In this document: positions 29,978 to 63,947 of the stretch, piece after piece
Numbering within the stretch: position 1 is the first letter of the stretch
How the letters are laid out: every line of letters starts with the position of its first letter
NCBI RefSeq assembly: GCF_003148385.1
Contig: NZ_CP029463.1
Coordinates: 1,116,001-1,180,000, forward strand
Source of the DNA: Flavobacterium sediminis
Lineage (GTDB): Bacteria > Bacteroidota > Bacteroidia > Flavobacteriales > Flavobacteriaceae
DNA length: 64,000 bases
Direction of reading: 5' to 3'
Translations under genes and position numbers: made by a program
Notes under the pieces: generated by a model
The model's database searches: none
The model's input: only the letters and a program-made list of their open reading frames with translations
Told to the model about the DNA's origin: nothing

Positions 29978-30541
29978 ATGAGTACATTATTTATCAAAAA
30001 TATGGTCTGCAACCGTTGTATTCTCGTAGTTCAGAACGAACTCGACAAACTCGGCATAGAGGCTACCAATATAAAACTGGGCGAAATAATCCTTAAAAAA
30101 GATTTAACCACAGCAGAGCGTGAGGCATTGGAAAACGTTTTAGACCCTTTGGGTTTTCAGGTCATCGACGACAAGAAGAGCCGGATGATTGAGAAAATAA
30201 AGAACGTTATCATTGACCTGGTGCACCATCAGGACAACGATGCGAAAACCAATCTTTCGGATGTGTTGAGCGATGCGCTGCACCACGATTACAACTACCT
30301 TAGCAACCTGTTTTCCGATATTGAGGGTACGACCATTGAGAAGTACTTTATCGCACAGAAAGTAGAAAAGATAAAAGAACTGTTGGTGTACGATGAGCTG
30401 TCGTTAAGCGAGATTGCCGACCGTATGAATTATTCGAGCGTGGCATATTTGAGCAACCAGTTCAAGAAAGTAACAGGGCTTACACCGAGCCATTTCAAGC
30501 AGATAAGGGAAGACAAGCGCAAGCCACTGGATAAGGTTTAA
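29978..30541 (+). CDS. HMA-AraC fusion regulator, first copy
   Basis: 187 residues. The N-terminal 65 residues are a ferredoxin-like HMA module with an intact metal-binding loop (FIKNMVCNRCILVVQNEL, MxCxxC). The C-terminal 100 residues are an AraC-type double HTH (LVYDELSLSEIADRMNYSSV, then AYLSNQFKKVTGLTPSHFKQ). There is no cupin or other sensory domain, so the HMA is the obvious metal sensor (inference: Cu(I) or a similar soft metal). It lies directly upstream of the Cu-ATPase gene, whose promoter carries the motif-1 operator. A paralogue lies at 39546. Confidence 0.9.
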   Translation: MSTLFIKNMVCNRCILVVQNELDKLGIEATNIKLGEIILKKDLTTAEREALENVLDPLGFQVIDDKKSRMIEKIKNVIIDLVHHQDNDAKTNLSDVLSDALHHDYNYLSNLFSDIEGTTIEKYFIAQKVEKIKELLVYDELSLSEIADRMNYSSVAYLSNQFKKVTGLTPSHFKQIREDKRKPLDKV

Positions 30542-30605
30542 GTAAATCTTACAAATCAAACCCAGAATTTCACAATAGAACTCCTCTTTATTGTTGCCAC
30601 CTTTG
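30541..30605 (+). promoter_or_regulatory. Motif-1 operator and promoter of the Cu-ATPase gene
   Basis: AGTAAA, first half-site TCTTACAA, TCAAAC, then second half-site TTTCACAA (30568-30575) followed by TAG. The -7 box TTTG is at 30602-30605, 27 bp after the second half-site. Confidence 0.8.
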
Positions 30606-30631
30606 CATTATGAAAATAAAGCAATCGAGAT

Positions 30632-33043
30632 ATGGCAACCAATAAAGAAACAATTTACATTCCTTTAGAGGATGTAGAAAGCGAGCACTGTGCATTAATC
30701 GTCGAAAAAGGACTGGCACAGGTAAAAGGCGTAGAAACCCACAAAGTAGAGCTAAATAACCGCAGGGCGGCTATTACCGTTAATGATAACGAGGTAGTAG
30801 GCGAAGCTGTAAAAGCAATTAAAGATTTAGGCTACGGCGTTCCCACTGTTAAAAAGACTTATCCCGTTTTAGGTATGACCTGTGCATCTTGTGCAGGCAG
30901 TGCCGAGAGTATGGCAAAATATACGCCGGGCGTAGTAAGTGCCGAAGTGAATTACGGTACGGGAAACCTCAACGTTGAATTCCTGCCGAATATAACCAAT
31001 TCCGAGCAAATCAGGAAAGCGGTACAGGACGGCGGTTATGACCTATTGCTCGAAGACGAGAGCAAGCAACAGGAAACTTTAGAAGCTATCCACGCCGAAA
31101 AATTCAGAAAACTTAAAAACAAAACCATTTGGGCAGTAATCCTATCGCTACCGGTGGTCATTATCGGTATGTTCTTTATGGATATGCCTTACGGTAATGA
31201 AATAATGTGGGCATTCGCCACTCCGGTAGTTTTATGGTTAGGTAAAGACTTCTTTATCAATGCGTGGAAGCAGGCGAAACACCGTTCTGCCAATATGGAC
31301 ACACTTGTCGCATTGAGTACAGGTATCGCCTATATATTCAGCGTATTCAATATGCTGTTTATGGACTTTTGGCATCAAAGAGGTTTACACGCACACGTGT
31401 ACTTTGAAGCCGCAGCCGTAATCGTTGCCTTTATTTTATTGGGCAAGCTATTGGAAGAAAAAGCCAAAGGCAATACCTCATCAGCCATTAAAAAGCTGAT
31501 GGGCTTGCAACCGAAAACGGTTATCGTAATAGAAGCAGACGGCACGGAAAGACAAAAAGCCATCGAAGATGTAAACGCAGGCGATATTATTTTGGTTAAG
31601 CCGGGCGAAAAAATTGCGGTGGATGGTACAGTTGTATCGGGCAATTCGTATGTAGATGAAAGTATGCTAAGCGGCGAACCTGTTCCGGTACTGAAAAAGG
31701 AAAACGAAAAGGTATTTGCCGGAACCATCAACCAAAAAGGTAGCTTCCAGTTCAAGGCGGTAAAAGTGGGTAAAGAAACAATGCTTGCCCAAATCATCAA
31801 AATGGTGCAGGATGCACAGGGAAGTAAAGCACCCGTACAAAAACTGGTGGATAAAATCGCAGGTATTTTCGTTCCGGTAGTAATCGGTATTGCTATCCTG
31901 ACATTTATTCTTTGGTTCTTCTTAGGAGGCGAGAATGGTGTTGTACAAGGTCTTTTAGCAGCCGTTACTGTATTGGTTATTGCTTGTCCTTGTGCTTTAG
32001 GCTTGGCTACTCCTACCGCTATTATGGTGGGCGTTGGTAAGGGTGCAGAAAACGGCATCCTGATTAAAGATGCGGAAAGTTTGGAATTAGCGAAGAAAGT
32101 AAACGCTATCGTGCTGGATAAAACAGGTACGATTACCGAGGGAAGACCACAGGTTACAGGCATCCAATGGCTGAACAATGACGATGCGACGAAAGATGTT
32201 TTATTGAGCATTGAAAAGCAATCGGAGCACCCATTAGCGGAAGCCGTTGTGAAAAATTTGGAGGGCGTTTCTACAACTTTATTATCAAACTTCGACAGTA
32301 TAACAGGTAAAGGCGCAAAAGCCGATTACAACAGCGACACTTACTATGTAGGTAATAAAAAACTGTTAGCCGAAAACAACATTACCATTGCCGACCAACT
32401 GCAAAAGCAGGCGGACGAATGGGGCACACAGTCTAAAACCGTTATATGGTTTGCAAACAGTAAACAAGCTCTTTCTGTAATCGCTATTTCCGACAAAATT
32501 AAAGAGACATCGGTACAGGCTATCAAAGAAATGCAGGATGCGGATATCGAACTGTATATGTTGACGGGAGATAATGAGGCTACCGCCAAAGCTATCGCCG
32601 AGCAAACTGGTATCAAGCATTACAAAGCCGAAGTTTTGCCACAGCACAAAGCTGATTTTGTGAAAGAACTGCAACAGCAAGGCAAAGTAGTAGCAATGGT
32701 TGGCGACGGTATCAATGACAGTACAGCACTGGCAACTGCCGATGTAAGTATCGCAATGGGTAAAGGTTCGGATATCGCAATGGACGTGGCGAAGATGACC
32801 ATTATTTCATCAGACCTTACCAAAATACCTCAAGCCATAAGACTATCAAAACAAACCGTATCAACCATTAAGCAGAACCTGTTTTGGGCATTTATCTATA
32901 ACCTTATAGGTATTCCGATTGCAGCAGGTATTCTTTACCCAATCAATGGTTTCTTACTAAACCCAATGATTGCCGGAGCCGCAATGGCGTTGAGTAGTGT
33001 AAGTGTGGTAAGTAACAGTTTACGTTTGAAATGGAAGAAGTAA
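30632..33043 (+). CDS. copA: Copper-translocating P1B-type ATPase
   Basis: 803 residues. Two N-terminal HMA modules are present. The first is atypical (VESEHCALIVEKG, with S-E-H-C in place of CxxC); the second has the canonical GMTCASC near residue 85. The transmembrane metal site is CPCALGLATPT near 452, the phosphorylation motif is DKTGTITEG near 495, the ATP-binding HP motif is in KQSEHPLAEAV, and the hinge is GDGINDSTALATAD. CPC with the later YN and MxxSS-type motifs marks the Cu(I) exporter class. It is full length, and its stop codon overlaps the next motif-1 operator. Confidence 0.95.
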   Translation: MATNKETIYIPLEDVESEHCALIVEKGLAQVKGVETHKVELNNRRAAITVNDNEVVGEAVKAIKDLGYGVPTVKKTYPVLGMTCASCAGSAESMAKYTPGVVSAEVNYGTGNLNVEFLPNITNSEQIRKAVQDGGYDLLLEDESKQQETLEAIHAEKFRKLKNKTIWAVILSLPVVIIGMFFMDMPYGNEIMWAFATPVVLWLGKDFFINAWKQAKHRSANMDTLVALSTGIAYIFSVFNMLFMDFWHQRGLHAHVYFEAAAVIVAFILLGKLLEEKAKGNTSSAIKKLMGLQPKTVIVIEADGTERQKAIEDVNAGDIILVKPGEKIAVDGTVVSGNSYVDESMLSGEPVPVLKKENEKVFAGTINQKGSFQFKAVKVGKETMLAQIIKMVQDAQGSKAPVQKLVDKIAGIFVPVVIGIAILTFILWFFLGGENGVVQGLLAAVTVLVIACPCALGLATPTAIMVGVGKGAENGILIKDAESLELAKKVNAIVLDKTGTITEGRPQVTGIQWLNNDDATKDVLLSIEKQSEHPLAEAVVKNLEGVSTTLLSNFDSITGKGAKADYNSDTYYVGNKKLLAENNITIADQLQKQADEWGTQSKTVIWFANSKQALSVIAISDKIKETSVQAIKEMQDADIELYMLTGDNEATAKAIAEQTGIKHYKAEVLPQHKADFVKELQQQGKVVAMVGDGINDSTALATADVSIAMGKGSDIAMDVAKMTIISSDLTKIPQAIRLSKQTVSTIKQNLFWAFIYNLIGIPIAAGILYPINGFLLNPMIAGAAMALSSVSVVSNSLRLKWKK

Positions 33044-33101
33044 ACCGATAAATCACACAAAGAATATTAAAATAGATAGAAACGTTTTGCTGCTGATATT
33101 T
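33038..33101 (+). promoter_or_regulatory. Motif-1 operator and promoter of the CDF gene
   Basis: A diverged copy, one base shorter: AGTAAA ... ATCACACAAAG, then second half-site TATTAAAA (33064-33071) and TAG. TTTG of GATATTTG is at 33098-33101, again 27 bp after the half-site. The first bases overlap the copA stop. Confidence 0.65.
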
Positions 33102-33131
33102 GCAGCAGTGAAACAATAATCACAAGTAAAT

Positions 33132-34082
33132 ATGGGACAAGACCACGGACACAGCCACTCGCATACTGCGAATAAAAAGACCCTGACCATTAGCTTGGTA
33201 ATCATCACTACATATATGGTAGTGGAGGTAGTGGGAGGTTTTCTGACAAACAGCCTTGCCTTATTAGCCGATGCCGGACATATGTTGAGTGATGCAATAT
33301 CGCTTTTCATTGCGCTGATGGCCTTTAAGTTCAGCAGTAAAATAGCCGATTACAGTAAGACCTACGGCTATAAGCGCTTTGAAATACTTGCAGCAGTTAT
33401 CAACGGTGCAACACTTATCCTGATTTCAGTTTATATCATTTACGAGGCGATAGAACGCTTTCAGAGCCCACCGGAAATTCAATCAGGAGGTATGCTCATT
33501 GTAGCAATTGTAGGCTTATTGGTTAATGTGCTTGTAGCCTGGATAATGATGCGTGGTGCTGACGTAAAGGAAAACCTCAATATGCGTGGAGCCTACCTGC
33601 ACGTCATCAGTGATATGCTCGGTTCGGTTGGTGCAATTATCGCAGCGTTGCTCATTATGTTTTTCGGTTGGGGGTGGGCAGACCCGTTGGCAAGCGTTAT
33701 TGTTTCGATACTGGTATTGAGAAGTGGGTATTTAGTTACTAAATCATCGGTACACGTATTGATGGAAGGCACACCCGAAAATGTTGAAGTGGATAAGGTC
33801 AATGAAAAAATCCTTAAAACCGATGGTATTAAAAGTATTCACGACCTGCATATTTGGACAATTACAAGTGGATTGAATGCACTTACGTGCCACGCCGTTG
33901 TAAATGAAAAAATGACTATCGAAGAAAGTGAAATATTACTTCGTAAAGTAGAACACGAATTAGAGCATATGAATATCCATCACGTTACCATCCAGTTGGA
34001 AACACCAGCACATCTACACGATAATTCGGTGCTATGTATTGTAAAGGCTGAACCGTCAGCACACGACCATCATAATCATTAA
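33132..34082 (+). CDS. czcD: Cation diffusion facilitator (CzcD-like)
   Basis: 316 residues, a six-helix CDF exporter. Metal-site helices are LALLADAGHMLSDAISLF and HVISDMLGSVGAIIAALL. The N- and C-termini are histidine-rich (GQDHGHSHSHTANK and SAHDHHNH), and there is a cytoplasmic C-terminal domain (HDLHIWTITSGLNALTCHAV). It exports Zn or similar divalent ions from the cytoplasm by proton antiport in the family. It is under a motif-1 promoter with the copper genes, and a lipoprotein gene follows 48 bp later. Confidence 0.92.
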   Translation: MGQDHGHSHSHTANKKTLTISLVIITTYMVVEVVGGFLTNSLALLADAGHMLSDAISLFIALMAFKFSSKIADYSKTYGYKRFEILAAVINGATLILISVYIIYEAIERFQSPPEIQSGGMLIVAIVGLLVNVLVAWIMMRGADVKENLNMRGAYLHVISDMLGSVGAIIAALLIMFFGWGWADPLASVIVSILVLRSGYLVTKSSVHVLMEGTPENVEVDKVNEKILKTDGIKSIHDLHIWTITSGLNALTCHAVVNEKMTIEESEILLRKVEHELEHMNIHHVTIQLETPAHLHDNSVLCIVKAEPSAHDHHNH

Positions 34083-34658: not shown

Positions 34659-34723
34659 AGTAAATCTTACAATTCAAACAAGGAATTTTACAAAGCATTT
34701 CTTTTGCAAGGGACTGATATTTG
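34659..34723 (+). promoter_or_regulatory. Motif-1 operator and promoter of the Csp-like gene
   Basis: AGTAAA, half-site TCTTACAA, TCAAACAAGGAA, half-site TTTTACAA (34686-34693), and TTTG of ATATTTG at 34720-34723, 27 bp after. Confidence 0.8.
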
Positions 34724-34770: not shown

Positions 34771-35109
34771 ATGATACAAACAAAATTTCAATCGTGTATC
34801 GAGGCTTGCCTGAAGTGCGTAGCTATCTGTAACCAATGTGCCATTGCTTGTTTAAATGAAGATGATGTTGCACACGTAAAGAAATGTATCCAGTTAGACC
34901 TGGAATGTGCAGCTATTTGCCAAGCGGCAGCAAACGTATTAAGTCTTGATGGTAAATTTAGCAAAGAGATTTGCAAACTATGTGCTGACATTTGCAACGC
35001 TTGTGCTGAAGAGTGTGAGAAACACGCTGCAATGGGTATGGAGCATTGTAAAGAATGTGCAGAAGCGTGCAGAGCTTGTGCAAAGGCTTGTGAGGAAATG
35101 GCAGCGTAA
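34771..35109 (+). CDS. Four-helix cysteine-rich copper storage protein (DUF326/Csp-like)
   Basis: 112 residues with 19 cysteines in CxxxC/CxxC spacing along helices (for example CIEACLKCVAICNQCAIAC and CKECAEACRACAKAC). This is the pattern of DUF326 four-helix bundles, related to copper storage proteins that hold many Cu(I) ions in a thiol-lined core. There is no signal peptide, so it is a cytosolic sink. It is monocistronic: its own motif-1 promoter upstream and a terminator directly downstream. Confidence 0.9.
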   Translation: MIQTKFQSCIEACLKCVAICNQCAIACLNEDDVAHVKKCIQLDLECAAICQAAANVLSLDGKFSKEICKLCADICNACAEECEKHAAMGMEHCKECAEACRACAKACEEMAA

Positions 35110-35178: not shown

Positions 35179-35243
35179 AGTAAATATCACAAATCAAACA
35201 GGGAAAAGCGTAATGAGGAAGTGACCTTATGTACTGAAATTTG
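35179..35243 (+). promoter_or_regulatory. Motif-1 operator and promoter of azurin
   Basis: First half is canonical (AGTAAATATCACAAATCAAAC). The second half is diverged (AAGCGTAA, 35206-35213). The -7 TTTG is at 35240-35243, still exactly 27 bp after. Confidence 0.7.
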
Positions 35244-35278: not shown

Positions 35279-35788
35279 ATGAAAAAGTTAGTGTTAGCAT
35301 TGTCGGTAATCGCATTTACTGCCTGTAACAACAATCAGCAAAAAGACAAGACCACACAGGAGAGCAATCAGCCTGTAATAGAAGAAACAGTTGCCCCCGC
35401 AGAAACAGGGAACGAAAATGTAATTACCATTAGCGGCGGCGATGATATGAAATTCGACAAAACCGAACTGAAAGCCAAAGCAGGCGAAACCGTAAAGCTC
35501 ATTTTAAAGCACATCGGAAAAGCACCGATTGAGGCAATGGGGCACAATGTTGTTATACTTGCCCAGGGCACAGACTTCAACACTTTTGCCAATGCTGCGA
35601 TAGATGCTAAGGACAACGGCTACATACCTAAAGGAATGGAAAACGCCGTAATCGCAAAAACGGATATGATTGGCGGTGGGCAAACCACAGAAATTACCTT
35701 TACGGCTCCGGCAAAAGGCTCGTATGATTTCCTGTGCTCGTTTCCCGGTCATTACATCTATATGAAAGGTAAATTAATCGTGGAATAA
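35279..35788 (+). CDS. Azurin-type blue copper lipoprotein
   Basis: 169 residues. The lipoprotein signal ends FTAC near residue 16, followed by an acidic linker and a cupredoxin domain. The type-1 copper ligands are visible: His in AMGHNVVILAQ, then Cys, His and Met in FLCSFPGHYIYMKGKL. Azurins shuttle electrons or buffer copper in the periplasm. It has its own motif-1 promoter, placing it firmly in the copper regulon. Confidence 0.92.
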   Translation: MKKLVLALSVIAFTACNNNQQKDKTTQESNQPVIEETVAPAETGNENVITISGGDDMKFDKTELKAKAGETVKLILKHIGKAPIEAMGHNVVILAQGTDFNTFANAAIDAKDNGYIPKGMENAVIAKTDMIGGGQTTEITFTAPAKGSYDFLCSFPGHYIYMKGKLIVE

Positions 35789-35806: not shown

Positions 35807-35871
35807 AGTAAAAATCACAAATCTTACAGGGAATACCATAATAGTAACACCTCGTTTAATACGGAAATTTG
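35807..35871 (+). promoter_or_regulatory. Motif-1 operator and promoter of the SxHC HMA gene
   Basis: AGTAAAAATCACAAATC, then TTACAGGGAA and half-site TACCATAA (35834-35841). TTTG is at 35868-35871, 27 bp after. Confidence 0.75.
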
Positions 35872-35895: not shown

Positions 35896-36141
35896 ATGAA
35901 AAATGTAGAATTAAGCATACCAGATATGCAAAGTGCACACTGCCAGTCGAGAGTAAACGGAGCAATCAAAGACATTGACGGCATTAAAGTAGAAAAACTG
36001 GAAGCAGGAAAATTATCTGTTTCAGTTGAAAACGACGAAGTGAAAGAAGAGTTGGTTGAGGCGATTGAAAAAGCAGGCTACAAAGTTGGCGGCGACGACA
36101 GCGGAAAGGCTTCAAGTTGTTCAACAGGATGCTGCGGATAA
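35896..36141 (+). CDS. Small HMA-fold protein with S-x-H-C loop and Cys tail
   Basis: 81 residues. The HMA fold is recognisable (KNVELSIPDMQSAHCQSRV), but the metal loop has S-A-H-C where CxxC is normal. A second potential site is the C-terminal SSCSTGCCG. The same S-x-H-C variant occurs in the first HMA of the Cu-ATPase in this window, suggesting a dedicated donor/acceptor pair. Likely a cytosolic copper chaperone. It is under a motif-1 promoter and followed by an AraC-type gene. Confidence 0.8.
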   Translation: MKNVELSIPDMQSAHCQSRVNGAIKDIDGIKVEKLEAGKLSVSVENDEVKEELVEAIEKAGYKVGGDDSGKASSCSTGCCG

Positions 36142-36246: not shown

Positions 36247-36663
36247 ATGTTACAGAAACAAAATTCAGGCGACTGTTCGGAGATAATGACGAAAGTTTGC
36301 AATGTAGCAGACCGGATTATACAGAACAGGTTGGACACAGGTAAATCTGCACCGTTTGCCGTACAGCTTACAAACGAATTGAAAGCAGATTATCACCAGT
36401 TGAACAATCTGTTCCTTGTTAAATATGATATGAGCCTTGAAATTATCTATATCAGGCGCATTATCGAAAAGGTAAAAGAGTTACTGGTGTACACCGAGCA
36501 ATCGCTGTCACAAATCGCAAAGGCGTTAGGCTATCAAAAGCCGACGGAACTGTCCGAGCAATTAATGACCTATACGGGATTAACGTCTGCCCATTTTAAG
36601 CAGATACGAAAAAACAAGCTCGAAATCATCAGAAGACAACAGGAAAAGCAAAACGAACTATAA
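36247..36663 (+). CDS. AraC-type DNA-binding protein lacking the HMA module
   Basis: 138 residues. The C-terminal HTH region (LVYTEQSLSQIAKALGYQKP, TYTGLTSAHFKQIRKNK) is closely related to the two HMA-AraC proteins of this window, including the preceding YIRRIIEKVKEL helix. The N-terminus is a short unrelated segment (MLQKQNSGDCSEIMTKVCN) with no HMA fold. The gene directly upstream is a free HMA protein, so sensor and DNA-binding parts may work in trans here. GYQKP replaces the usual GYSS at the second recognition region. Confidence 0.8.
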   Translation: MLQKQNSGDCSEIMTKVCNVADRIIQNRLDTGKSAPFAVQLTNELKADYHQLNNLFLVKYDMSLEIIYIRRIIEKVKELLVYTEQSLSQIAKALGYQKPTELSEQLMTYTGLTSAHFKQIRKNKLEIIRRQQEKQNEL

Positions 36664-39072: not shown

Positions 39073-39339
39073 TCAGAAATCTTCTTTCAGCAGGTCTTTG
39101 AGCTTCCGGTGCTGTATGCACAGTTCGGCATACATTGTTTTCAGCCTGCTGTTTTCTTCGTTTAAATTTACCAATTCTACAAGAATATCCATCCCTAAAT
39201 CCTTGTATTTGTGTTTCAGTTCAAAAATGTTCGTGCCGTAAACGCCGTATTTCTCGAAAAGTTCCAGTCCGCTTTTACCTGCGTTGTAATCTTTCAGCAC
39301 CTTTAAAACCTGATGTTCGTTGCTCTTTTTGTTCTTCAT
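39073..39339 (-). CDS. IS3-type OrfA-like HTH protein (isolated)
   Basis: 88 residues. A helix-turn-helix of transposase type (VLKDYNAGKSGLELFEKYGV, then YGTNIFELKHKYKDLG) is followed by a leucine-zipper-like coil (LVELVNLNEENSRLKTMYAE). This resembles the OrfA half of IS3 transposases. No orfB or terminal inverted repeats are visible on either side, so it is a remnant or a domesticated DNA-binding protein. It lies divergent from the second HMA-AraC gene. Confidence 0.65.
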   Translation of the reverse strand: MKNKKSNEHQVLKVLKDYNAGKSGLELFEKYGVYGTNIFELKHKYKDLGMDILVELVNLNEENSRLKTMYAELCIQHRKLKDLLKEDF

Positions 39340-39445
39340 TTTTATACGGATGTTGTCTATTACAAAATTCCGTAAGATGGTCGGAAGTAGCTATGTACTT
39401 TTCCTTATTTAGTTTATGATATTTAATGTTACTGCACCGATTTTC

Positions 39446-39509
39446 ATAAAATTTCACAAAACAAAGCCGGAATATCATAATAGTTTGTCGGGGCAAATGC
39501 AGAATTTTG
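39446..39509 (+). promoter_or_regulatory. Motif-1 operator and promoter of the second HMA-AraC gene
   Basis: TAAAATTTCACAAAACAAAG, then GGAA and half-site TATCATAA (39473-39480). TTTG is at 39506-39509, 26 bp after. This predicts autoregulation of the regulator. Confidence 0.75.
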
Positions 39510-39545: not shown

Positions 39546-40136
39546 ATGACACTATTAATAAAAGGAATGGTGTGCAATAGATGTACCTATGTTCTTGAAC
39601 AGGAATTGACAGCTTTGGGTTTTGAGGTTTTGGATATAAAACTGGGGCAAGCCATCATAAAGGATACGACAGACTTTTCGCAGAAGTTGGGAGTAATCAA
39701 AACGATGCTGAAAGGCATCGGCTTGGAACTGATGTATGACAAAAACCAAAAGACAATAAACAGGATAAAAGAGTTGGTGGAGAAAGGTATCACGTTGCAA
39801 CTGCAAAGCGGCACACCTACCAAATTCACAACCTTAATCAGTGGCAAGCTGCACAAGAACTACGATACATTGAGTGCCTTATTCTCTTCAGTGGAGGGAA
39901 TTACACTCGAAAAGTACATCATTCGTCGGAAGATTGAAAAGGTAAAAGACCTTTTGGTACATACCGAAATGTCGCTGACCGAGATTGCCCACGTACTGGG
40001 GTACAGCAGTCAGGCATACCTTTCCAACCAGTTGAAAAAACACACGGGCTTTACATCAAGCTATTTCAAGCAGGTAAAGCAGGAACACGGGGAAGCCGTT
40101 ACTATGCAGATGGACGAAGCGCAACCCCCGCATTAA
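39546..40136 (+). CDS. HMA-AraC fusion regulator, second copy
   Basis: 196 residues. The N-terminal HMA has MTLLIKGMVCNRCTYVLEQE (MxCxxC intact). The C-terminal AraC HTH has LVHTEMSLTEIAHVLGYSSQ and AYLSNQLKKHTGFTSSYFKQ. It is homologous along its full length to the first copy at 29978. Its own promoter carries motif 1, so it is probably autoregulated. It precedes the RND efflux operon. A short C-terminal tail (GEAVTMQMDEAQPPH) is extra relative to the first copy. Confidence 0.9.
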   Translation: MTLLIKGMVCNRCTYVLEQELTALGFEVLDIKLGQAIIKDTTDFSQKLGVIKTMLKGIGLELMYDKNQKTINRIKELVEKGITLQLQSGTPTKFTTLISGKLHKNYDTLSALFSSVEGITLEKYIIRRKIEKVKDLLVHTEMSLTEIAHVLGYSSQAYLSNQLKKHTGFTSSYFKQVKQEHGEAVTMQMDEAQPPH

Positions 40137-40248: not shown

Positions 40249-40313
40249 AGTAAATTTCACAACTTTTACCCGTCATTTCGTATAGCTGCACCTTAGCTGT
40301 AACCCGACCTTTG
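40249..40313 (+). promoter_or_regulatory. Motif-1 operator and promoter of the RND efflux operon
   Basis: AGTAAATTTCACAA, diverged centre, half-site TTTCGTAT (40276-40283) and TAG. TTTG is at 40310-40313, 27 bp after. Confidence 0.7.
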
Positions 40314-40375: not shown

Positions 40376-41446
40376 ATGAGAACAAGTAAAATTGGTTTGT
40401 TATCCCTCTTCCTTATCGGAGCCGGATTGATACAGAGTTGCAAACAAAAAGAAGAAAAACAGTTAAAAGATGAGCCTCCGGTAGTAACCGTAGCCACTAT
40501 CAACAGTTCGGAAACCGAGCAATCCGTTTCCTATTCGGGTTCCATTGTTCCCGACAATATGACTACCATAAGTTTTGCCGTTCCCGGCACGATTAACAGT
40601 GTGGGTGTAAATGAGGGGCAGCGAGTGAGCAAAGGACAGTTTCTTGCAAGCATTGATGCCACCGAGTACGAAGCGGCATTGCAGATTGCCAATGCCAGTT
40701 TAGAGCAGAGCCAGGATGCGTTCAGAAGATTTGATGAACTGTACAAAAAAGGAAGTTTCCCTGAAAAGGATTACATCGACATCAAGACCAAAGTAGCGCA
40801 GGCAGAAGCCAACAAAAAAATCAACCGCAAGCGCATTGCCGACAGCCGTTTGCATTCGCCTACCAATGGTATAATTACCGTGAAAACTGCCGAGGTTGGC
40901 GGTATGGCAGCACCGGGCGTTCCTGCCTTTACCATTGTAAAAACAGATATGGTATATGCGCAGTTTGCCGTACCCGAAAGCGAAATCGGCAGCTTTAAAC
41001 AAGGGATGCAGGTAGATGTGAATATTCCTACATTGCAACGCAATTTCACGGGTAAAATCACCATCATTAATCCCGTAGCCGATGAAATTTCAAAAGCATT
41101 TACCCTTAAAGTACGCTTGGACAATCCGGGCGGCGTGCTGATGCCGGGAATGATTACCGAAGTGCTTGCAGGCGTCCCGGTAAAGGTTAAGCAGGTACGT
41201 GTACCACTTACCGCCATCATCAACAATGTAGATAAAATCCCGCACGTGTACGTGGTAGATAAGAACAACACCGCTAAGCTGACGAGGGTTACAGTGGGCA
41301 AAATCGTAGGCGATGCGGTTATTATAACCGATGGTCTTAACGAAAGCCAGACCATTATCCTTGCCGGGCAAAATAACGTGAAAGACGGGCAGAAAGTAAA
41401 AGCGCAAACTACATCGGTAACAGCATCAGCCCCAAAATCTGAATAA
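40376..41446 (+). CDS. RND efflux periplasmic adaptor (MFP)
   Basis: 356 residues. The lipoprotein signal ends LIQSC near residue 22. The hairpin and lipoyl parts have GTINSVGVNEGQRVSKGQFL and RIADSRLHSPTNGIITVKTA, typical of AcrA-like adaptors. It links the inner-membrane pump to the outer-membrane channel. First gene of a tripartite operon with a HAE1-type pump and a TolC protein, and under a motif-1 promoter. Confidence 0.9.
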   Translation: MRTSKIGLLSLFLIGAGLIQSCKQKEEKQLKDEPPVVTVATINSSETEQSVSYSGSIVPDNMTTISFAVPGTINSVGVNEGQRVSKGQFLASIDATEYEAALQIANASLEQSQDAFRRFDELYKKGSFPEKDYIDIKTKVAQAEANKKINRKRIADSRLHSPTNGIITVKTAEVGGMAAPGVPAFTIVKTDMVYAQFAVPESEIGSFKQGMQVDVNIPTLQRNFTGKITIINPVADEISKAFTLKVRLDNPGGVLMPGMITEVLAGVPVKVKQVRVPLTAIINNVDKIPHVYVVDKNNTAKLTRVTVGKIVGDAVIITDGLNESQTIILAGQNNVKDGQKVKAQTTSVTASAPKSE

Positions 41447-46538: not shown

Positions 46539-46603
46539 AGTAAAAATCACAAATTTATCAAAGGAAATTATAATACTTGTGCATAGCAGCTTCTATAATT
46601 TTA
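46539..46603 (+). promoter_or_regulatory. Motif-1 operator ahead of the Fur-family gene
   Basis: AGTAAAAATCACAAATT, then half-site AATTATAA (46566-46573). The expected position 27 bp later holds TTTT in TATAATTTTA rather than TTTG. The ATG is at 46645. This is the weakest -7 box of the set. Confidence 0.6.
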
Positions 46604-53268: not shown

Positions 53269-53283
53269 AATAACAAATACCCT

Positions 53284-53308
53284 CTGATTGTTCCTAATAA
53301 GCAATCAG
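53284..53308 (+). terminator. Weak hairpin after the CzcB gene
   Basis: CTGATTG/CAATCAG, 7-bp stem with an 11-nt loop, no T tract. Possible terminator. Confidence 0.35.
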
Positions 53309-53356
53309 CCAGTAAATCAAATATAAGGGTTTTGCTAAAATGGTAGCTGTTTCGCT

Positions 53357-53393
53357 TTTGCAACCAGGTTCCCAAAATGGCAGAGTAATTTTG
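53357..53393 (+). promoter_or_regulatory. Motif-2 palindromic operator and promoter of the Zn/Cd ATPase
   Basis: TTTGCAACCAGGTTCCCAA (53357-53375), identical to the copy at 47133. TAATTTTG is at 53386-53393, again 29 bp from the motif start. The ATG follows at 53426. Confidence 0.8.
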
Positions 53394-53425
53394 TTTTACA
53401 AATAGAAATAAAAAAAATTTTAGAT

Positions 53426-55633
53426 ATGTCAAAAATATGTTGTAGTACAGACGATAGTCTGAACCTGGTAAATAAAAAAGAGCATAAACATAAATATGAT
53501 ACACAGGGAAATCAACTATGCTGTTTGAAAACAGAAAAGATTTATAAAAATGCAGGTGCATCAGATTTGCTGAAAGATGCTAATCATTCCGATGACGGAC
53601 ACGGACACACTGGCGGCAAAAGTTGCAGTAAAGCCGATACTAAACATTGTGATGATGACCACAACCATATAGAAAAAAGCGGACGCAATCACGACCACCA
53701 CGGACACAATCACGATCACCACGGGCACAGCCACGGTGATGACCACGACCACAGTCACGACATAGAGGGCAAAACGCCATTTCAGTTATTTATGCCTGCG
53801 GGTATATCTTTAGCTTTATTACTTGTTGCTATCGGTTTTGATAATTACTTTACTCAAAACTGGTTCACTGGTTGGGTTAGAATTGCCTGGTACGTTATCG
53901 CTTATTTACCTGTCGGATTGCCAGTAATCAAAGAAGCTATTGAAAGTATCCGATACAAAGACTTTTTTTCAGAATTTTTCTTGATGGCGATTGCGACAAT
54001 CGGTGCATTTGCACTTGGCGAATATCCTGAAGCAGTAGCTGTAATGCTGTTCTACTCCGTAGGTGAAGTATTTCAGACTATTGCGGTATCAAGAGCAAAA
54101 GGTAATATTAAAGCCCTATTAGACCAACGCCCTGATGAGGTAACGGTTATCAGAGCAGGTAAGCCTATTGTTGTAAAAGCTGAAGATGCTTACATAGGCG
54201 ATGTTATTCAGTTAAAGCCGGGCGAAAAATTGGGATTGGACGGCGAGTTGATTTCAGAAACCGCCTCTTTCAATACAGCAGCCCTTACAGGAGAAAGCAA
54301 ACCTGATACAAAAAGTAAAGGCGAAGCTGTATTGGCAGGTATGATTAACCTCAACACTGTAAGCCAAATAAAGGTAACAACCGATTATTCGGATAGTAAG
54401 TTAAGCAGAATTTTGGAACTGGTTCAGGATGCCACATCGCAAAAAGCACCAACCGAGTTGTTTATCCGTAAATTTTCCAAAATTTATACGCCGATAGTCG
54501 TATATCTGTCTATTGCTATTACCTTACTTCCCGCACTTTTCGTAGATAATTATGTATTCAGTGAATGGTTGTATAGAGCATTGGTATTCCTGGTTATCTC
54601 TTGTCCTTGCGCTTTGGTAATCTCCATCCCTCTGGGTTATTTTGGTGGTATTGGGGCAGCAAGTCGAAACGGTATCCTGCTTAAAGGGTCTAATTTCCTT
54701 GATATTCTTGCCAAAGTAGAAAATGTAGTGATGGATAAAACGGGAACCCTCACCGAAGGTGTTTTCAAAGTCCAGGAAGTCTTTATCAAACCAGAATTCA
54801 ATAAAGACGAAATACTCAACCTCGTCAACGTATTGGAAAGTCAAAGTACACACCCTGTTGCAACCGCAATCCACAATTATTGGGGAGAGGTAGATGCCGA
54901 CGTAAATTTAGCAAATGTTGAAGAAATAGCAGGACACGGATTAAAAGCCACCGTTAACGGTAAAGAGCTTTTAGTAGGTAATTTCAAATTGCTCGATAAA
55001 TTTAACATCAGCCACGATGCAGATACCGCAAACATAGTTTACACAGTAATAGCGATTGCTTATGATAGAAAGTTCGTAGGATATTTAACCATTTCGGACA
55101 GCATTAAAGTAGATGCAAAAGCAGCAATTGAAAATCTGCGTAAAATGGGTGTAAAAACCACAATGTTGAGTGGTGATAAAAATACCGTTGTTCAGTTTGT
55201 TTCGGGACAGTTGGGCATTGACAGTGCGTATGGGGATTTATTACCTGAAGACAAAGTAAATAAAGTAAAGGAAATCAAATCCCGTAATGGCAGCGTGGCG
55301 TTTGTAGGTGATGGTGTAAATGATGCTCCAGTAATTGCGTTGAGTGATGCAGGTATCGCAATGGGCGGTTTAGGAAGTGATGCTGCTATTGAAACAGCCG
55401 ATGTTGTGATACAGGACGATATGCCATCCAAAATACCAATGGCTATTAATATCGGAAAACAGACTAAAAAAATCGTCTTTCAAAATATAGCATTGGCATT
55501 CGGAGTAAAAGCAATCGTGCTTATACTTGGTGCAGGAGGATTAGCAACAATGTGGGAAGCTGTATTTGCCGATGTAGGTGTAGCCTTATTAGCAATTCTT
55601 AATGCGGTGCGGATACAAAGAATGAAGTTTTAA
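53426..55633 (+). CDS. Zn/Cd/Pb-type P1B ATPase with His-rich N-terminus
   Basis: 735 residues. The N-terminal 110 residues have Cys pairs (KICC, LCCLKTEK) and a long His/Asp stretch (NHDHHGHNHDHHGHSHGDDH) instead of an HMA domain. The membrane metal site is SCPCALVISIP near 393, phosphorylation DKTGTLTEG near 436, ATP binding SQSTHPVATAI, and hinge GDGVNDAPVIALSD. CPC with the late transmembrane Asp pattern (FADVGVALLAILNAV) marks the ZntA/CadA class. It has its own motif-2 promoter and terminator. Likely the main cytoplasmic zinc/cadmium exporter of the element. Confidence 0.93.
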   Translation: MSKICCSTDDSLNLVNKKEHKHKYDTQGNQLCCLKTEKIYKNAGASDLLKDANHSDDGHGHTGGKSCSKADTKHCDDDHNHIEKSGRNHDHHGHNHDHHGHSHGDDHDHSHDIEGKTPFQLFMPAGISLALLLVAIGFDNYFTQNWFTGWVRIAWYVIAYLPVGLPVIKEAIESIRYKDFFSEFFLMAIATIGAFALGEYPEAVAVMLFYSVGEVFQTIAVSRAKGNIKALLDQRPDEVTVIRAGKPIVVKAEDAYIGDVIQLKPGEKLGLDGELISETASFNTAALTGESKPDTKSKGEAVLAGMINLNTVSQIKVTTDYSDSKLSRILELVQDATSQKAPTELFIRKFSKIYTPIVVYLSIAITLLPALFVDNYVFSEWLYRALVFLVISCPCALVISIPLGYFGGIGAASRNGILLKGSNFLDILAKVENVVMDKTGTLTEGVFKVQEVFIKPEFNKDEILNLVNVLESQSTHPVATAIHNYWGEVDADVNLANVEEIAGHGLKATVNGKELLVGNFKLLDKFNISHDADTANIVYTVIAIAYDRKFVGYLTISDSIKVDAKAAIENLRKMGVKTTMLSGDKNTVVQFVSGQLGIDSAYGDLLPEDKVNKVKEIKSRNGSVAFVGDGVNDAPVIALSDAGIAMGGLGSDAAIETADVVIQDDMPSKIPMAINIGKQTKKIVFQNIALAFGVKAIVLILGAGGLATMWEAVFADVGVALLAILNAVRIQRMKF

Positions 55634-58307: not shown

Positions 58308-59141
58308 TTACATTGAATTTCGGAATGTAAGAGGTGAAGAGCCCGTTTGTGATTTGAAAAAGCGAAGAAAATAAGAATAGTCTTCGTACCCGAGATAAAC
58401 AGCGATTTCTTTAATGCTTAACGTTGTATTGACAAGTAATCTTTTTGCCTGAAGGATAATTCGATTTTTGATAATTGTATTTGGAGCAATCTGTTTTTCT
58501 GTTACTATTTTTCGGTTGAGGTTTTTAGGTGTAAGATTGAGCATAGATGCATAATCTGCTACGGAGTGGATAGTTCGATAATTTTGCTCTACCAATTGGC
58601 TAAATTTTCTCGCCAGCTCTTTATCGAATGATACGGGGTGATAAATATCGTAGTCCTTTTTTGCAAGAGTTCGGGTAGCAAAAATAACAACCTGCTTGAT
58701 ATAGGTCTTAATCATTTCTTCCGCCCAAAAATCTTTTACCGCAATTTCCTCTTTAATAGAAATAAGTATTTTTTGAAAAATGTCTCTTTGATGTGCGGTG
58801 AGCGCTATAAAAGGAAGTTCAAAAACGTTGTCGAAAAGAAGTCCGTCACAAGCAAGCTCTTTATCGTGAAAAGCGATACAATAGAAATTCGGGTTAAAAT
58901 AAACAATGCTTCCTTCCGAATTTTTAGATATTTTGAATTGTTGCCCTATACTAAAGAAAAGCAATGTACTTTCTTCAAAATCATAGTCAACAAAATCAAC
59001 ATTAACACGTCCTTCTTTTAAGAAAACAATTTTATAATTCTCGTCAAACCAAACTGTGTTGCTTACAATCCCATCTGGCATTCCAAAAAAATCGAAATAA
59101 CCTATCATTTTATCCTGATTGTTCTCGGTCGCTATATCCAT
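58308..59141 (-). CDS. AraC-family regulator with cupin-like N-domain
   Basis: 277 residues. The N-terminal ligand-binding domain is of the usual 160-residue type (IVSNTVWFDENYKIVFLKEG), followed by the double HTH (SVADYASMLNLTPKNLNRKI and LSIKEIAVYLGYEDYSYFLR). It has no HMA module and is unrelated in layout to the three metal-associated AraC proteins. It sits between hppD and osmC on the same strand. A regulator of hydroperoxide or tyrosine metabolism is plausible, but not proven. Confidence 0.88.
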   Translation of the reverse strand: MDIATENNQDKMIGYFDFFGMPDGIVSNTVWFDENYKIVFLKEGRVNVDFVDYDFEESTLLFFSIGQQFKISKNSEGSIVYFNPNFYCIAFHDKELACDGLLFDNVFELPFIALTAHQRDIFQKILISIKEEIAVKDFWAEEMIKTYIKQVVIFATRTLAKKDYDIYHPVSFDKELARKFSQLVEQNYRTIHSVADYASMLNLTPKNLNRKIVTEKQIAPNTIIKNRIILQAKRLLVNTTLSIKEIAVYLGYEDYSYFLRFFKSQTGSSPLTFRNSM

Positions 59142-60579: not shown

Positions 60580-60617
60580 AGTAAAAGTCATAAAACAAAG
60601 CCGGAATATTACAAGCG
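60580..60617 (+). promoter_or_regulatory. Motif-1 operator, upstream tandem copy
   Basis: AGTAAAAGTCATAAAACAAAG, GGAA, half-site TATTACAA (60607-60614). No TTTG stands 27 bp downstream; that position is inside the next motif copy, so this one is an accessory site. Confidence 0.65.
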
Positions 60618-60639: not shown

Positions 60640-60704
60640 AGTAAATATCATAAATCAAACAAGGAATTTCACAAACAGCTTAGCGCATTATCTACCGATT
60701 TTTG
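60640..60704 (+). promoter_or_regulatory. Motif-1 operator and promoter of the HMA-DUF3347-MCO operon
   Basis: AGTAAATATCATAAATCAAAC, AAGGAA, half-site TTTCACAA (60667-60674). TTTG is at 60701-60704, 27 bp after. Confidence 0.8.
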
Positions 60705-60735: not shown

Positions 60736-60957
60736 ATGGAAAGCAAAAATCTTCAATTCAAGACAAACCTTAATTGCAGCAACTGTGTATCAAAAGTGCA
60801 GGCAGATTTAGATAACGCAGGCGGTATCTGCGAATGGAACGTTGATACGACCAACGCCGATAAAATCCTGACTGTAAAAGCAGAGGGCATTACCGAAGAC
60901 GAGGTTGTCGCCATCATCAAGAAAAAAGGGTTTAAAGCTGAACCCATTTCAGAATAA
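60736..60957 (+). CDS. HMA-domain copper chaperone
   Basis: 73 residues, a single HMA fold with the metal loop LNCSNCVSKVQADL (CxxC) and the C-terminal VVAIIKKKGFKAEPIS typical of CopZ-like chaperones. No signal peptide. First gene of the motif-1 operon with DUF3347 and the multicopper oxidase. Confidence 0.88.
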   Translation: MESKNLQFKTNLNCSNCVSKVQADLDNAGGICEWNVDTTNADKILTVKAEGITEDEVVAIIKKKGFKAEPISE

Positions 60958-60992: not shown

Positions 60993-61436
60993 ATGAAAAA
61001 GTTAATAGTAGCAATGACCGTAATGTTGTTTGGATTTTCTGCCTTTGCGCAAAATACAGGCAACCTGCTGAACAACTACATCAGCGTAAAAAATGCTTTG
61101 GTAAGCAGCGATAGTAAAGCGGCAAGCACCGCCATTAGCGCACTGAACGAAGCCGTTAAGAGCGAGGGCGATTTTGCACAGAAAGCAGAATTGCAGAAAG
61201 CCACCGACAAATTAAGTAAGGCAGGTAACAACCTTGAAAAGCAAAGAGCCGCTTTCAACGAAGTATCAACCGTACTGTGGAAAGTGGTAAAATCATCAGA
61301 CAAAGTAAACCAACCCGTTTACTACCAATATTGCCCGATGAAAAAAGCATATTGGTTAAGCAAAGAAAAGGAGATTAAAAATCCTTACTACGGTTCTTCT
61401 ATGCTTACTTGTGGTAAAGTTACCGAAACTAAATAA
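60993..61436 (+). CDS. DUF3347 periplasmic protein
   Basis: 147 residues. A signal peptide (MKKLIVAMTVMLFGFSAFAQ) is followed by a helical domain and the DUF3347 C-terminal signature YYQYCPMKKAYWLSKEKEIK and NPYYGSSMLTCG. The Cys and Met residues in this signature may bind copper, and DUF3347 is found in copper-responsive lipoproteins and CusB-like proteins. It lies 35 bp after the HMA gene and 66 bp before the oxidase. Confidence 0.88.
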   Translation: MKKLIVAMTVMLFGFSAFAQNTGNLLNNYISVKNALVSSDSKAASTAISALNEAVKSEGDFAQKAELQKATDKLSKAGNNLEKQRAAFNEVSTVLWKVVKSSDKVNQPVYYQYCPMKKAYWLSKEKEIKNPYYGSSMLTCGKVTETK

Positions 61437-61445: not shown

Positions 61446-61472
61446 AAGGCATTGCTCAATGGGCAATGCCTT
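61446..61472 (+). terminator. Hairpin between DUF3347 and the multicopper oxidase
   Basis: AAGGCATTGC/GCAATGCCTT perfect 10-bp stem, then TTAATCTTT. It may attenuate rather than end the transcript, since no promoter is evident before the oxidase. Confidence 0.65.
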
Positions 61473-61502
61473 TTAATCTTTATAACCAATGCGATTTTTA
61501 AA

Positions 61503-63803
61503 ATGGATAATCAAAAATTTCTTTACAAAAAGCTGTTGCCGCTAACCCTGTTGGCAATCTTTATATCACAAGTCAGCATTGCACAAAAGGTAGTTCATTA
61601 CGACCTGTATGTAAAAGATACGCTTGTAAATTATGCGGGCAAGGAAAAGAGGGCAATTGCTGTAAACGGGCAAATCCCGATGCCCACGCTTGAATTTACA
61701 GAGGGCGACACGGCAGAAATCGTAGTGCATAACCAGTTAAAAGAAAGTACATCCCTGCACTGGCACGGCTTGTTCCTGCCGAATAAGGAAGACGGCGTAC
61801 CTTTCTTAACGCAAATGCCGATTGAGCCGGGCGCAACTTATACTTACCGATTTCCGATTATTCAGAACGGAACGCATTGGTATCACTCACATTCGGGATT
61901 GCAGGAACAGATTGGAATGTACGGCAGCTTTATAATGCGCAAAAGGGCTGATGATAAAACATTTAGGAAAGGAATTGACGATTTACCGGAAATTCCCATA
62001 ATGCTAAGCGAATGGACGAACCTGAAGCCCGAAAATGTACACCGTATGCTGCACGCAGCAAGCGACTGGTTTGCGATAAGGAAAGGCGCAACACAAAGCT
62101 ACGCCGAAGCCATTAGAAGCGGAAAATTCAAAACCAAGCTGAACAACGAATGGAAGCGTATGTTGGCAATGGACGTGAGCGATGTGTATTACGACCGTGT
62201 AATGATGAACGGTAATCATCATACCGATTTAAAAAGCATTGACGGCAAGCCCTTAAAAGCAGGCGATAAAGTACGTTTACGCATTTCCAATGGGGGTGCA
62301 TCGTCTTACTTTTGGCTGCGCTATGCAGGCGGTAAAATTACCGTAGTGGCGAGTGATGGCAACGATGTGGAGCCTGTGGAAGTGGACAGGCTGATTATTG
62401 CTGTATCGGAAACTTACGATGTGGTTGTTACCATTCCCGAGGACGGCAAAGCCTTTGAATTTATGGCAACCACCGAAGACCGTACCCAATCCACAAGCTA
62501 TTTTATTGGCAACGGTACAAAACAATTGGTCGGGGAAATGCCACGCCTGAAATATTTTGAGGGTATGCAAATGATGAACGATATGATGAAGATGAACGGC
62601 GACCTGGAAGATATGGGAATGAATATGAGCCTGAACCAAATGGATATGAACGTAGTGATGTACCCGGAGATTACAGGCGAGGAAAAGAGCAAAAAAAACA
62701 AGGGTACAGCACCGTCTATGGAGCATCACGGCGACCATAAGATGAATAGCGACGAAGACCCCAACCGTTATAATGCTAATGCGTTGAGCGACATTAAAAC
62801 GCTCAATTACGCAATGTTGAAATCGCCGCATAATACCACGCTTCCGGCTGATGCCCCGGTTAAGGAACTGAAATTTACCTTAACGGGAAATATGAACCGT
62901 TACGTTTGGAGTATGGATAACAAGGTTTTGGCAGAAACAGATAAGATACCTGTTAAAAAAGGCGAAGTATTGAGGATTACGATTTATAATAACTCAATGA
63001 TGCGCCACCCGATACACCTGCACGGTTTTGATTTCAGGGTGCTGAATGAGCACGGCGAAAATGCACCGATGAAAAACATCATCGACATTATGCCGATGGA
63101 AACCGATACGATAGAGTTCCTTGCGAATACCGAGGGTGATTGGTTTTTCCATTGTCATATCCTGTATCATATGATGGCAGGTATGAATAGGGTTTTCGCT
63201 GTGGATGATTACAAAAATCCGTATTTACCCAATAAGGAAAAAGCATATAAAATGTTGCAGCGTGAAAGCAATATGCCACATTTGATGGCTCAAAGTGATT
63301 TTGCGACCAATGGTATTGACGGAGAAGCAATGTTGATGAACGCCCGTTACAGTTTGGGTACGGAATGGCGTTTAGGCTATAATGATATGCACGGCTATGA
63401 AGTGGAAACGCATTTGGGACGTTACATTGGTAAAATGCAATGGCTGATGCCTTTTGTCGGTTTCGATTGGCGATACCGCAGAATGGGAATGGACGAGCAC
63501 GAGAAAAACCTCTTCGGACAGGTTAATAAAAAAGACAACCGAGCTGCTGTGAGCTTAGGGGTAATGTACACCTTGCCGATGTTGGTCAACGTACAGGCAG
63601 AAGTTTACCACGACGGTATTTTCAGGGTATCATTGATGCGGGAGGATATACCTATCTCCAGACGGTTAAGAGCCGGGTTTATGGTCAATACCGATTTGGA
63701 ATATATGGCAGACCTGCGGTACATTTTGACGAGGCATATCGGTATCAGGGCGCACTATGATAGTGATATGGGCTTTGGTGCAGGACTTTCGCTCAATTAC
63801 TAA
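61503..63803 (+). CDS. Multicopper oxidase CopA fused to a CopB-like barrel domain
   Basis: 766 residues from ATG 61503 (MDNQKFLYKKLLPLTLLAIF, a signal peptide follows). The copper-binding blocks are HWHGLFLP near residue 86, HWYHSHSG near 127, HPIHLHGFDF near 501 and FHCHILYHMMAGM near 548. A methionine-rich insert (MQMMNDMMKMNGDLEDMGMN) precedes a His-rich linker. From about residue 612 the sequence turns into a beta-strand-rich outer-membrane domain (ETHLGRYIGKMQWLMPFVGF, then LRAGFMVNTDLEYMADLRYI), equivalent to the separate CopB of the pcoAB/copAB pair. It oxidises Cu(I) in the periplasm. Confidence 0.9.
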   Translation: MDNQKFLYKKLLPLTLLAIFISQVSIAQKVVHYDLYVKDTLVNYAGKEKRAIAVNGQIPMPTLEFTEGDTAEIVVHNQLKESTSLHWHGLFLPNKEDGVPFLTQMPIEPGATYTYRFPIIQNGTHWYHSHSGLQEQIGMYGSFIMRKRADDKTFRKGIDDLPEIPIMLSEWTNLKPENVHRMLHAASDWFAIRKGATQSYAEAIRSGKFKTKLNNEWKRMLAMDVSDVYYDRVMMNGNHHTDLKSIDGKPLKAGDKVRLRISNGGASSYFWLRYAGGKITVVASDGNDVEPVEVDRLIIAVSETYDVVVTIPEDGKAFEFMATTEDRTQSTSYFIGNGTKQLVGEMPRLKYFEGMQMMNDMMKMNGDLEDMGMNMSLNQMDMNVVMYPEITGEEKSKKNKGTAPSMEHHGDHKMNSDEDPNRYNANALSDIKTLNYAMLKSPHNTTLPADAPVKELKFTLTGNMNRYVWSMDNKVLAETDKIPVKKGEVLRITIYNNSMMRHPIHLHGFDFRVLNEHGENAPMKNIIDIMPMETDTIEFLANTEGDWFFHCHILYHMMAGMNRVFAVDDYKNPYLPNKEKAYKMLQRESNMPHLMAQSDFATNGIDGEAMLMNARYSLGTEWRLGYNDMHGYEVETHLGRYIGKMQWLMPFVGFDWRYRRMGMDEHEKNLFGQVNKKDNRAAVSLGVMYTLPMLVNVQAEVYHDGIFRVSLMREDIPISRRLRAGFMVNTDLEYMADLRYILTRHIGIRAHYDSDMGFGAGLSLNY

Positions 63804-63826
63804 AGGATTTCATTCATAAAATAGAC

Positions 63827-63858
63827 AAAGGTTGTAGCGGTTATGCTATAACCTTTTT
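63827..63858 (+). terminator. Terminator of the multicopper oxidase
   Basis: AAAGGTTGTAGC/GCTATAACCTTT stem (one mismatch), then TTGC. Confidence 0.7.
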
Positions 63859-63882
63859 GCATTTACAATACCAGACTAAATC

Positions 63883-63947
63883 AGTAAACCTCACAAATCA
63901 AACAAGAAATATCACAATAGGCAGCCCGAAACAAATTGCCAATTTTG
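63883..63947 (+). promoter_or_regulatory. Motif-1 operator and promoter of the next gene
   Basis: AGTAAACCTCACAAATCAAAC, AAGAAA, half-site TATCACAA (63910-63917). TTTG is at 63944-63947, 27 bp after. Confidence 0.8.

Follow-up and report, generated by a model that had tools for sequence, protein, structure and literature searches.

A candidate copper-responsive HMA-AraC activator and its predicted direct-repeat operators on a conjugative element of Flavobacterium sediminis

Operator elements and the island that carries them

The window analysed here is a stretch of 64,000 nucleotides from Flavobacterium sediminis (contig NZ_CP029463.1, positions 1,116,001 to 1,180,000), and all coordinates below are positions within it. 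A CTnDOT-type TraJ, a TraG P-loop protein, a relaxase, a coupling protein and RteC are encoded in its left part, so the gene island that follows is carried by a CTnDOT-like conjugative element. The island encodes proteins that join an N-terminal HMA-like domain to an AraC-type DNA-binding domain, termed HMA-AraC here, and a series of similar short elements lies in front of its genes. All eleven elements listed in a first-pass annotation are present, and the genes it had named as targets (copper ATPase, CDF exporter, cysteine-rich protein, azurin, HMA protein, regulator, RND operon, Fur gene and oxidase) were indeed found behind them (Table 1).

On re-alignment the element is a 38-base-pair (bp) direct repeat, in which two 17-bp half-sites, AGTAAAtnTCACAAatc and ArGGAAtnTCACAAtag, are separated by a 4-bp spacer. 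The period is 21 bp, as had been proposed; the length, given earlier as 37-38 bp, is 38 bp in the re-aligned elements. The second half-site is degenerate at 35179 (AAGCGTAA), 40249 (TTTCGTAT) and 46539 (AATTATAA). An AGTAAA start had been ascribed to every copy, and that description stands except for 39446, which starts ATAAAA. At 33038 the distance from AGTAAA to the first box is one base shorter than in the other sites; its placement in their common register was rejected as off by one base.

In 8 of the 11 copies, rather than in the nine originally counted, the TTTG of a -7 box starts at offset 61, counted in bases from the start of the site. The copy described as having its box 1 bp nearer is that at 39446, with TTTG at offset 60, and the box at 46539 reads TTTA at offset 61, not TTTT. 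The copy at 60580 lacks a -7 box of its own and lies 60 bp upstream of the copy at 60640, as first noted. The set of eleven was incomplete, a minus-strand site at 39390-39427 having been overlooked. Two further sites lie just past the window end (L028:3160 and L028:4221), the second preceding another 73-residue protein that resembles the one at 60736.

In a leave-one-out scan of both strands of the window, covering ten sites (33038 was not among these), nine outscored every non-site position and the tenth, at 40249, was beaten once, by a minus-strand position. The phylum model introduced below, run over 85,304 control bases, returned nothing at score 20 and two matches at score 15. A pattern search of the 3.44-Mb genome at up to three mismatches gave 13 matches, 10 of them in the island, against 3 in the backwards control; this pattern overlooks four island sites (33038, 39390 on the minus strand, 39446 and 40249). 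The 3 matches outside the island equal the control, so the island form of the motif, and this form only, is not equally frequent elsewhere in the host; together with the control bases, this decides the refuting condition set in the first-pass annotation in favour of its proposal. At one mismatch or fewer the island form occurs in 4 of 61 genomes of the genus, that of the window included.

Table 1. Predicted operators and AraC-type regulators in the window, with the genes behind each operator
Feature	Coordinates	Strand	-7 box	Remarks
HMA-AraC regulator	29978..30541	+		187 residues; CxxC at residues 11-14; AraC DNA-binding domain about 68-180
Operator 1	30541..30578	+	TTTG 30602-30605, offset 61	before CopA ATPase 30632-33043 (NCBIfam), 91 bp to ATG
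Operator 2	33038..33075	+	TTTG 33099-33102	degenerate, 1-base register shift; before CDF exporter 33132-34082 (Pfam)
Operator 3	34659..34696	+	TTTG 34720-34723	before cysteine-rich protein 34771-35109 (Pfam DUF326)
Operator 4	35179..35216	+	TTTG 35240-35243	before azurin-like cupredoxin 35279-35788 (Pfam Copper-bind)
Operator 5	35807..35844	+	TTTG 35868-35871	before HMA protein 35896-36141 (Pfam HMA), then HMA-less AraC protein 36247-36663
HMA-less AraC family protein	36247..36663	+		138 residues, DNA-binding domain only, divergent recognition helix
Additional operator	39390..39427	-	TTTG 39363-39366, offset 61	divergent from 39446; 88 bp to ATG of minus-strand open reading frame (ORF) 39073-39339
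Operator 6	39446..39483	+	TTTG 39506-39509	before HMA-AraC gene 39546-40136
Second HMA-AraC regulator	39546..40136	+		196 residues; 42% identical to 29978-30541
Operator 7	40249..40286	+	TTTG 40310-40313	before RND operon 40376-45884 (HlyD, OEP by Pfam)
Operator 8	46539..46576	+	TTTA 46600-46603	before Fur-family gene (Pfam FUR)
Operator 9	60580..60617	+		distal copy, 60 bp upstream of operator 10
Operator 10	60640..60677	+	TTTG 60701-60704	before 73-residue HMA-like protein 60736-60957, ORF 60993-61436 and multicopper oxidase 61452-63803 (NCBIfam)
Operator 11	63883..63920	+	TTTG 63944-63947	before MFS transporter from 63967, continuing past the window (L028:1968-3164)

The HMA match of the 73-residue protein at 60736-60957 reaches 22.0 bits, under the cut-off of 24.8, and the true start of the Fur-family gene is probably an ATG inside ORF 46579-47070. 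No operator was found by the window-model scan in front of the CzcA- and ZntA-type genes at 47643-55633. The HMA-AraC gene at 39546-40136 is expected to be autoregulated through operator 6. Sites 39446 and 60580 have AAAACAAAGCCGGAATAT in common, which is absent from the other sites, and may form a subclass that serves just one of the two HMA-AraC proteins. At L029 in the same genome an HMA-AraC gene, a site and a CopA gene again follow one another in that order. What lies behind the minus-strand operator is not what a copper regulon would be expected to carry: the minus-strand segment 37904-39339 holds an 88-residue ORF with a weak transposase-type helix-turn-helix match, a 103-residue ORF for which Pfam gave no match, and a DapB-like gene.

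HMA-AraC proteins and recurrence of the site in relatives

Operator 1 begins at the final base of the stop codon of the first HMA-AraC gene. The two-helix-turn-helix DNA-binding domain scores above the Pfam cut-off (HTH_18, HTH_AraC), which places the proteins in the AraC/XylS family. The geometry of the sites, direct half-sites abutting the promoter, fits that class. The regulators gave no NCBIfam family above cut-off, the CopZ model matching 39546-40136 weakly and under its cut-off. A profile of 60 sequences matches solved HMA domains, from copper ATPases and from CopZ, in its N-terminal part (positions about 1-60: 7xuk, E-value 9e-7; 1p6t, 1.6e-6; 2rml, 1e-5; 2ew9, 8e-5; 6ff2, 1.2e-3) and AraC-type proteins (2k9s) at the other; a single stretch passes alone for 6ff2 only. 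C11 and C14 are invariant in the 60 sequences, an invariance that is partly selected, as 58 of them came from a scan with CxxC in one of its two search patterns.

In the AlphaFold2 model (predicted local distance difference test score 87.7, predicted template-modelling score 0.78), a beta-alpha-beta-beta-alpha-beta domain is predicted, joined by a helical linker to a DNA-binding domain that is likewise helical. AraC-type domains rank first in Foldseek, and metallochaperones match weakly, at an E-value of 0.05 or worse. At least 8000 proteins pass an E-value of 0.001 in the family search, many perhaps through the DNA-binding domain alone; among the 120 matches listed, the names shown are helix-turn-helix or AraC-family proteins. 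At an E-value of 1e-20 the family is found in 142 of 296 Bacteroidota genomes. The HMA-less protein 36247-36663 adjoins a separate HMA protein, 35896-36141, behind operator 5, and the pair may be read as a split version of the fusion or as an antagonist. At L063 and L070 regulator and site are followed by a 65-residue CopZ-like HMA protein. Within a small reference set it matches the regulator itself best, a hint that the sensor domain may have come from a chaperone of this sort.

The model built from the window alone was too narrow for distant loci. It was therefore re-estimated on 62 training loci, comprising 60 family regions of these genomes, hand-picked among the matches listed for spread of relatedness, and two from the genome of the window, and tested on others. 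The resulting 38-bp phylum model was iterated from the window sites and leaves TTTG outside the model; as the window sites seeded it, their scores under it are not independent. In training, 76 sites were obtained in 51 of the 62 loci; 34 of them have TTTG at offset 61 and 7 have it at 60, and no other of the 50 offsets has it in more than 3. The lag-21 peak in this set is partly built in by the seed. The initial reversed control was unfair: it took its threshold from the real sequences, this had climbed to 31, and only for that reason was no site returned. When this was redone with a Markov null, the real training sequence gave 79 sites, 43 with TTTG at 60 or 61, the reversed sequence 50 sites in 18 loci (0 of 50) and Markov sequence 6 sites (0 of 6).

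A second collection supplied 77 named loci on which to test the frozen model. They are homologous to the training loci yet share less than 5% of 60-mers with earlier sequence; three of the original 80 (L093, L125 and L159) exceeded this limit and were dropped. The hold-out gave 83 sites in 63 of the 77 loci, against 1 in reversed sequence. TTTG lies at offset 60 or 61 in 76 of the 83 sites, and no other of the 48 offsets has it in more than 3. The held-out loci include one from an Ignavibacteria metagenome-assembled genome (L141). It is this hold-out, together with the place of TTTG, that carries the case, and it favours the earlier proposal of an AraC-type activator operator, with HMA-AraC proteins as the best candidates for the binder, since the same site, period and -7 distance recur beside HMA-AraC genes. 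Training and held-out loci together hold 159 predicted sites in 139 loci. A strict pattern that includes TTTG was found in 47 of 296 genomes (2 matches in all in the backwards control). Comparing the tables by hand, it occurs in 46 of the 142 genomes with the family and in 1 of the 154 without, a contrast that is inflated by shared ancestry and includes sites of the sister clade described below.

The genes behind these sites are mostly of copper type. Leaving out six loci with mixed or uncalled regulators, the 139 loci divide into 121 with a CxxC regulator and 12 others. The CxxC loci hold 120 sites. Within 300 bp, the gene that follows has CopA as its best match at 70 of them (at least three of these, at L082, L083 and L090, being 65-residue HMA proteins) and another HMA-type protein at 27; for the remainder it is an HMA-AraC gene (3), another copper-linked gene (2), an unknown (12) or none (6). 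The start codon lies a median of 90 bp from the site start (interquartile range 85-98, n = 133). A copper marker gene, from a list of our own choice, is present at 108 of the 121 CxxC loci and at 1 of the 12 others (Fisher 7e-9, overstated because the loci are related). L062, the only locus without CxxC that has a CopA gene, was so classed owing to a longer start, and its protein has MVCDRC.

Operator and regulator diverge together. Among the 69 of 121 CxxC loci with a TTTG-confirmed site and a CopA-type match longer than 500 residues, operator distance correlates with regulator distance at 0.53 for the DNA-binding domain and 0.50 for the N-terminal domain; allowing for CopA, the values are 0.47 and 0.44 (p 0.001). 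Given the DNA-binding domain, CopA adds nothing (-0.06, p 0.86). Operator distance still follows the DNA-binding domain given the N-terminal domain (0.36). This comparison points to the regulator, rather than the target gene, as the probable partner of the site, with the DNA-binding domain slightly ahead of the N-terminal domain.

Promoter geometry and the proposed activator

Start-site mapping in F. psychrophilum places TAnnTTTG at -12 to -5 (PMC9723704). On this scale the half-sites fall at -69 to -53 and at -48 to -32. The second of these lies over the position of the -33 element. The predicted placement of the operator is that of a class-II AraC activator, and the positions are close to those of araI1-araI2. 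An A at -11, never selected for, is present in all 101 site-linked boxes, and a T at -12 in 31% of them. In a filtered comparison T at -12 was found in 27 of 83 site-linked boxes versus 186 of 319 other intergenic NAnnTTTG boxes. The TTTG part of the TAnnTTTG box proposed in the first-pass annotation is thus retained, and with T at -12 usually absent the box is better written BAnnTTTG. A weak -7 box with the upstream element replaced by an operator suits the look of an activator-dependent promoter.

We propose that a copper-responsive one-component activator, HMA-AraC, encoded on the same conjugative element, uses these elements as its operators, and assign this reading a probability of roughly 0.82. 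The binder would be the protein at 29978-30541 and probably also that at 39546-40136; binding, activation and copper sensing are what we infer from sequence. Each AraC domain would read a 17-bp half-site of its own. The protein would be switched on by Cu(I) bound to the CxxC of its HMA-like domain, perhaps because the metal bridges two HMA-like domains, and the resulting dimer would fill both half-sites. The promoter-proximal half-site (-48 to -32) would then stand in for the -33 element, and bound HMA-AraC would contact sigma-A and rescue a -7 box without T at -12. The outcome would be copper-induced expression of CopA, the cupredoxin, the cysteine-rich protein, RND efflux, the oxidase and the regulator itself.

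Several observations weigh against this proposal. Pfam HMA (PF00403) gave no match at E-values up to 10 in four full-length family proteins, and only an HMA-like domain is therefore claimed, not filed under PF00403. ACT-type domains match the N-terminal fold as well as HMA domains do in VIA-align, so the HMA assignment rests on sequence and not on fold. Operator distance follows the N-terminal domain nearly as well as it follows the DNA-binding domain. The presence of three HMA-AraC-family proteins in one island complicates the pairing of site and protein. Within the window the CDF, Fur and minus-strand sites are weak: 33038 scores less than 12 with the phylum model (29.7 bits in the right register under a window model whose set includes it), and the minus-strand site scores 25.7 bits with the window model and 13.5 with the phylum model, under the threshold of 20 used for relatives. 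The iterated model drifts, and training counts alone prove little; the null sites never had TTTG at 60 or 61, so the promoter spacing is not a product of drift. In the hold-out, 14 of the 77 loci have no site at score 20 and 8 have none at 15, and a copper marker is absent from 13 of the 121 CxxC loci. Finally, the idea that the motif is copper-specific had to be rejected, as the same architecture also stands before non-copper genes (see the last section).

HMA domains bind several soft metals and a CxxC can act as a redox switch, so HMA-AraC might bind the sites and answer silver, gold, zinc, mercury or thiol oxidation of the CxxC, and the sites before the CDF exporter and the Fur-family gene would suit such a signal. 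We consider this unlikely, given that the sites at CxxC loci are followed mostly by genes for CopA-type ATPases and HMA proteins and that no site was found in front of the CzcA- and ZntA-type genes at 47643-55633. Some metal sensors act by derepression, and the sites end near the promoter, as would be expected if HMA-AraC blocked it until released by copper. However, with their end at -32 the sites cover neither the -7 box nor the start site. The box itself is weak at -12, suiting activator dependence, and AraC proteins at such a position are typically activators; repression is thus distinctly unlikely.

Another AraC-type protein could be the true binder, with HMA-AraC a mere neighbour. The 277-residue protein at 58308-59141 and the HMA-less 36247-36663 both have AraC-type DNA-binding domains and lie in the island, the latter behind operator 5. 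This is rendered highly unlikely by the sites held beside HMA-AraC genes in the hold-out and by the divergence of the operator with the HMA-AraC protein; moreover, the recognition helix of 36247-36663 is divergent. The clustering of the elements on a conjugative element might also suggest a mobile repeat, of the kind of a miniature inverted-repeat transposable element, or a conserved promoter sequence without a dedicated protein. This we find barely credible: no inverted repeat of 10 bp or more was found in six site regions covering seven sites, and in other genera, upstream regions that have diverged still show the fixed -7 distance and the A at -11.

The proposed HMA-AraC activator would combine features of several known systems. 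Like AraC at araI1-araI2 of the E. coli araBAD promoter, it has an AraC-type DNA-binding domain, 17-bp direct half-sites next to the promoter, a 21-bp period and class-II geometry; it differs in having a metallochaperone-like effector domain instead of the arabinose-binding cupin, and its promoter is of the Bacteroidota -33/-7 type. The single-domain activators SoxS and MarA (7w5w, 1bl0) share the fold of the DNA-binding domain and the class-II mode of activation proposed here. They bind one site as monomers and have no sensor domain, unlike HMA-AraC with its two half-sites and HMA-like domain. The N-terminus resembles CopZ/Atx1 and the N-terminal HMA domains of copper ATPases in its predicted beta-alpha-beta-beta-alpha-beta fold and first-loop CxxC, and differs from them in being fused to a DNA-binding domain and in being missed by Pfam HMA. 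CueR, CsoR, CopY and CusRS are copper sensors that control CopA, cupredoxin or RND genes, and their DNA-binding folds and operators are different.

Bacteroidota do carry copper ATPases and mobile metal-resistance islands. Narrow searches of the open-access literature brought up neither an HMA-AraC copper regulator nor its operator, and no account of copper sensing in Bacteroidota. AraC activators are well known, as are HMA domains. What appears to be new is that the two are fused to form a phylum-wide copper switch with a defined operator. If the proposal is true, Bacteroidota would own a distinct copper switch beside their copper-export genes. It would supply a candidate sensor, an exact operator and a promoter rule, BAnnTTTG with a half-site replacing the -33 element, and could provide a copper-inducible promoter for Bacteroidota genetics.

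A sister clade and genes outside copper resistance

In a tree of 73 family members, 53 CxxC proteins fall on one side and 20 on the other (support 99/96), and 17 of these 20 have no CxxC. The HMA-AraC protein at 39546-40136 lies on the copper side, on a long branch and in no starred subgroup. A looser pattern matched at four further places in the host genome, and in relatives as many as 13 matches per genome were obtained; two of those in the genome of the window (G000:C1:56656 and G000:C1:3145966) lie outside the island. We looked at 20 chromosomal looser-pattern sites (L172-L191), representing 12 of 13 in G206 and 8 of 11 in G170, two genomes of the same genus. An ORF starts 66-176 bp downstream of 19 of the 20, several of the ORFs being small and of stress type by eye, and 13 of the 20 sites reach score 20 with the frozen model.

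The sister clade, most of whose members lack CxxC, seems to have this architecture in front of stress-type genes, and the looser-pattern matches are probably tied to it. The operator architecture thus seems to belong to the family rather than to copper alone. That the proteins lacking the cysteines bind the chromosomal sites is our guess. The copper regulon of the first-pass annotation therefore stands for the island and the CxxC loci, whose genes are mostly of copper type, and not as a copper-only use of the architecture. As a broader and tentative extension, to which we give less than even odds, Bacteroidota may have a phylum-wide system of their own, in which HMA-AraC proteins act on a 17-4-17 class-II operator and the family comprises a Cu(I)-bridging CxxC clade that fills tandem half-sites and a cysteine-poor sister clade governing a general stress regulon with Dps- and CsbD-like genes. 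The copper switch, with a sister clade in which the cysteines are mostly absent, suggests how a metallochaperone-like sensor joined the AraC scaffold.

The surroundings of the sister-clade genes are as follows. At L199, L200, L202, L203 and L030 the members without cysteines adjoin a gene for a single-domain response regulator and one for a CHASE3-like kinase, and might possibly represent a general stress regulator of Flavobacteriia. A Dps-like gene is nearby at L199 and L202; all these neighbours were named by eye. The member at L054, on the same side of the tree, keeps its CxxC and sits among Dps- and CsbD-like genes, also named by eye.

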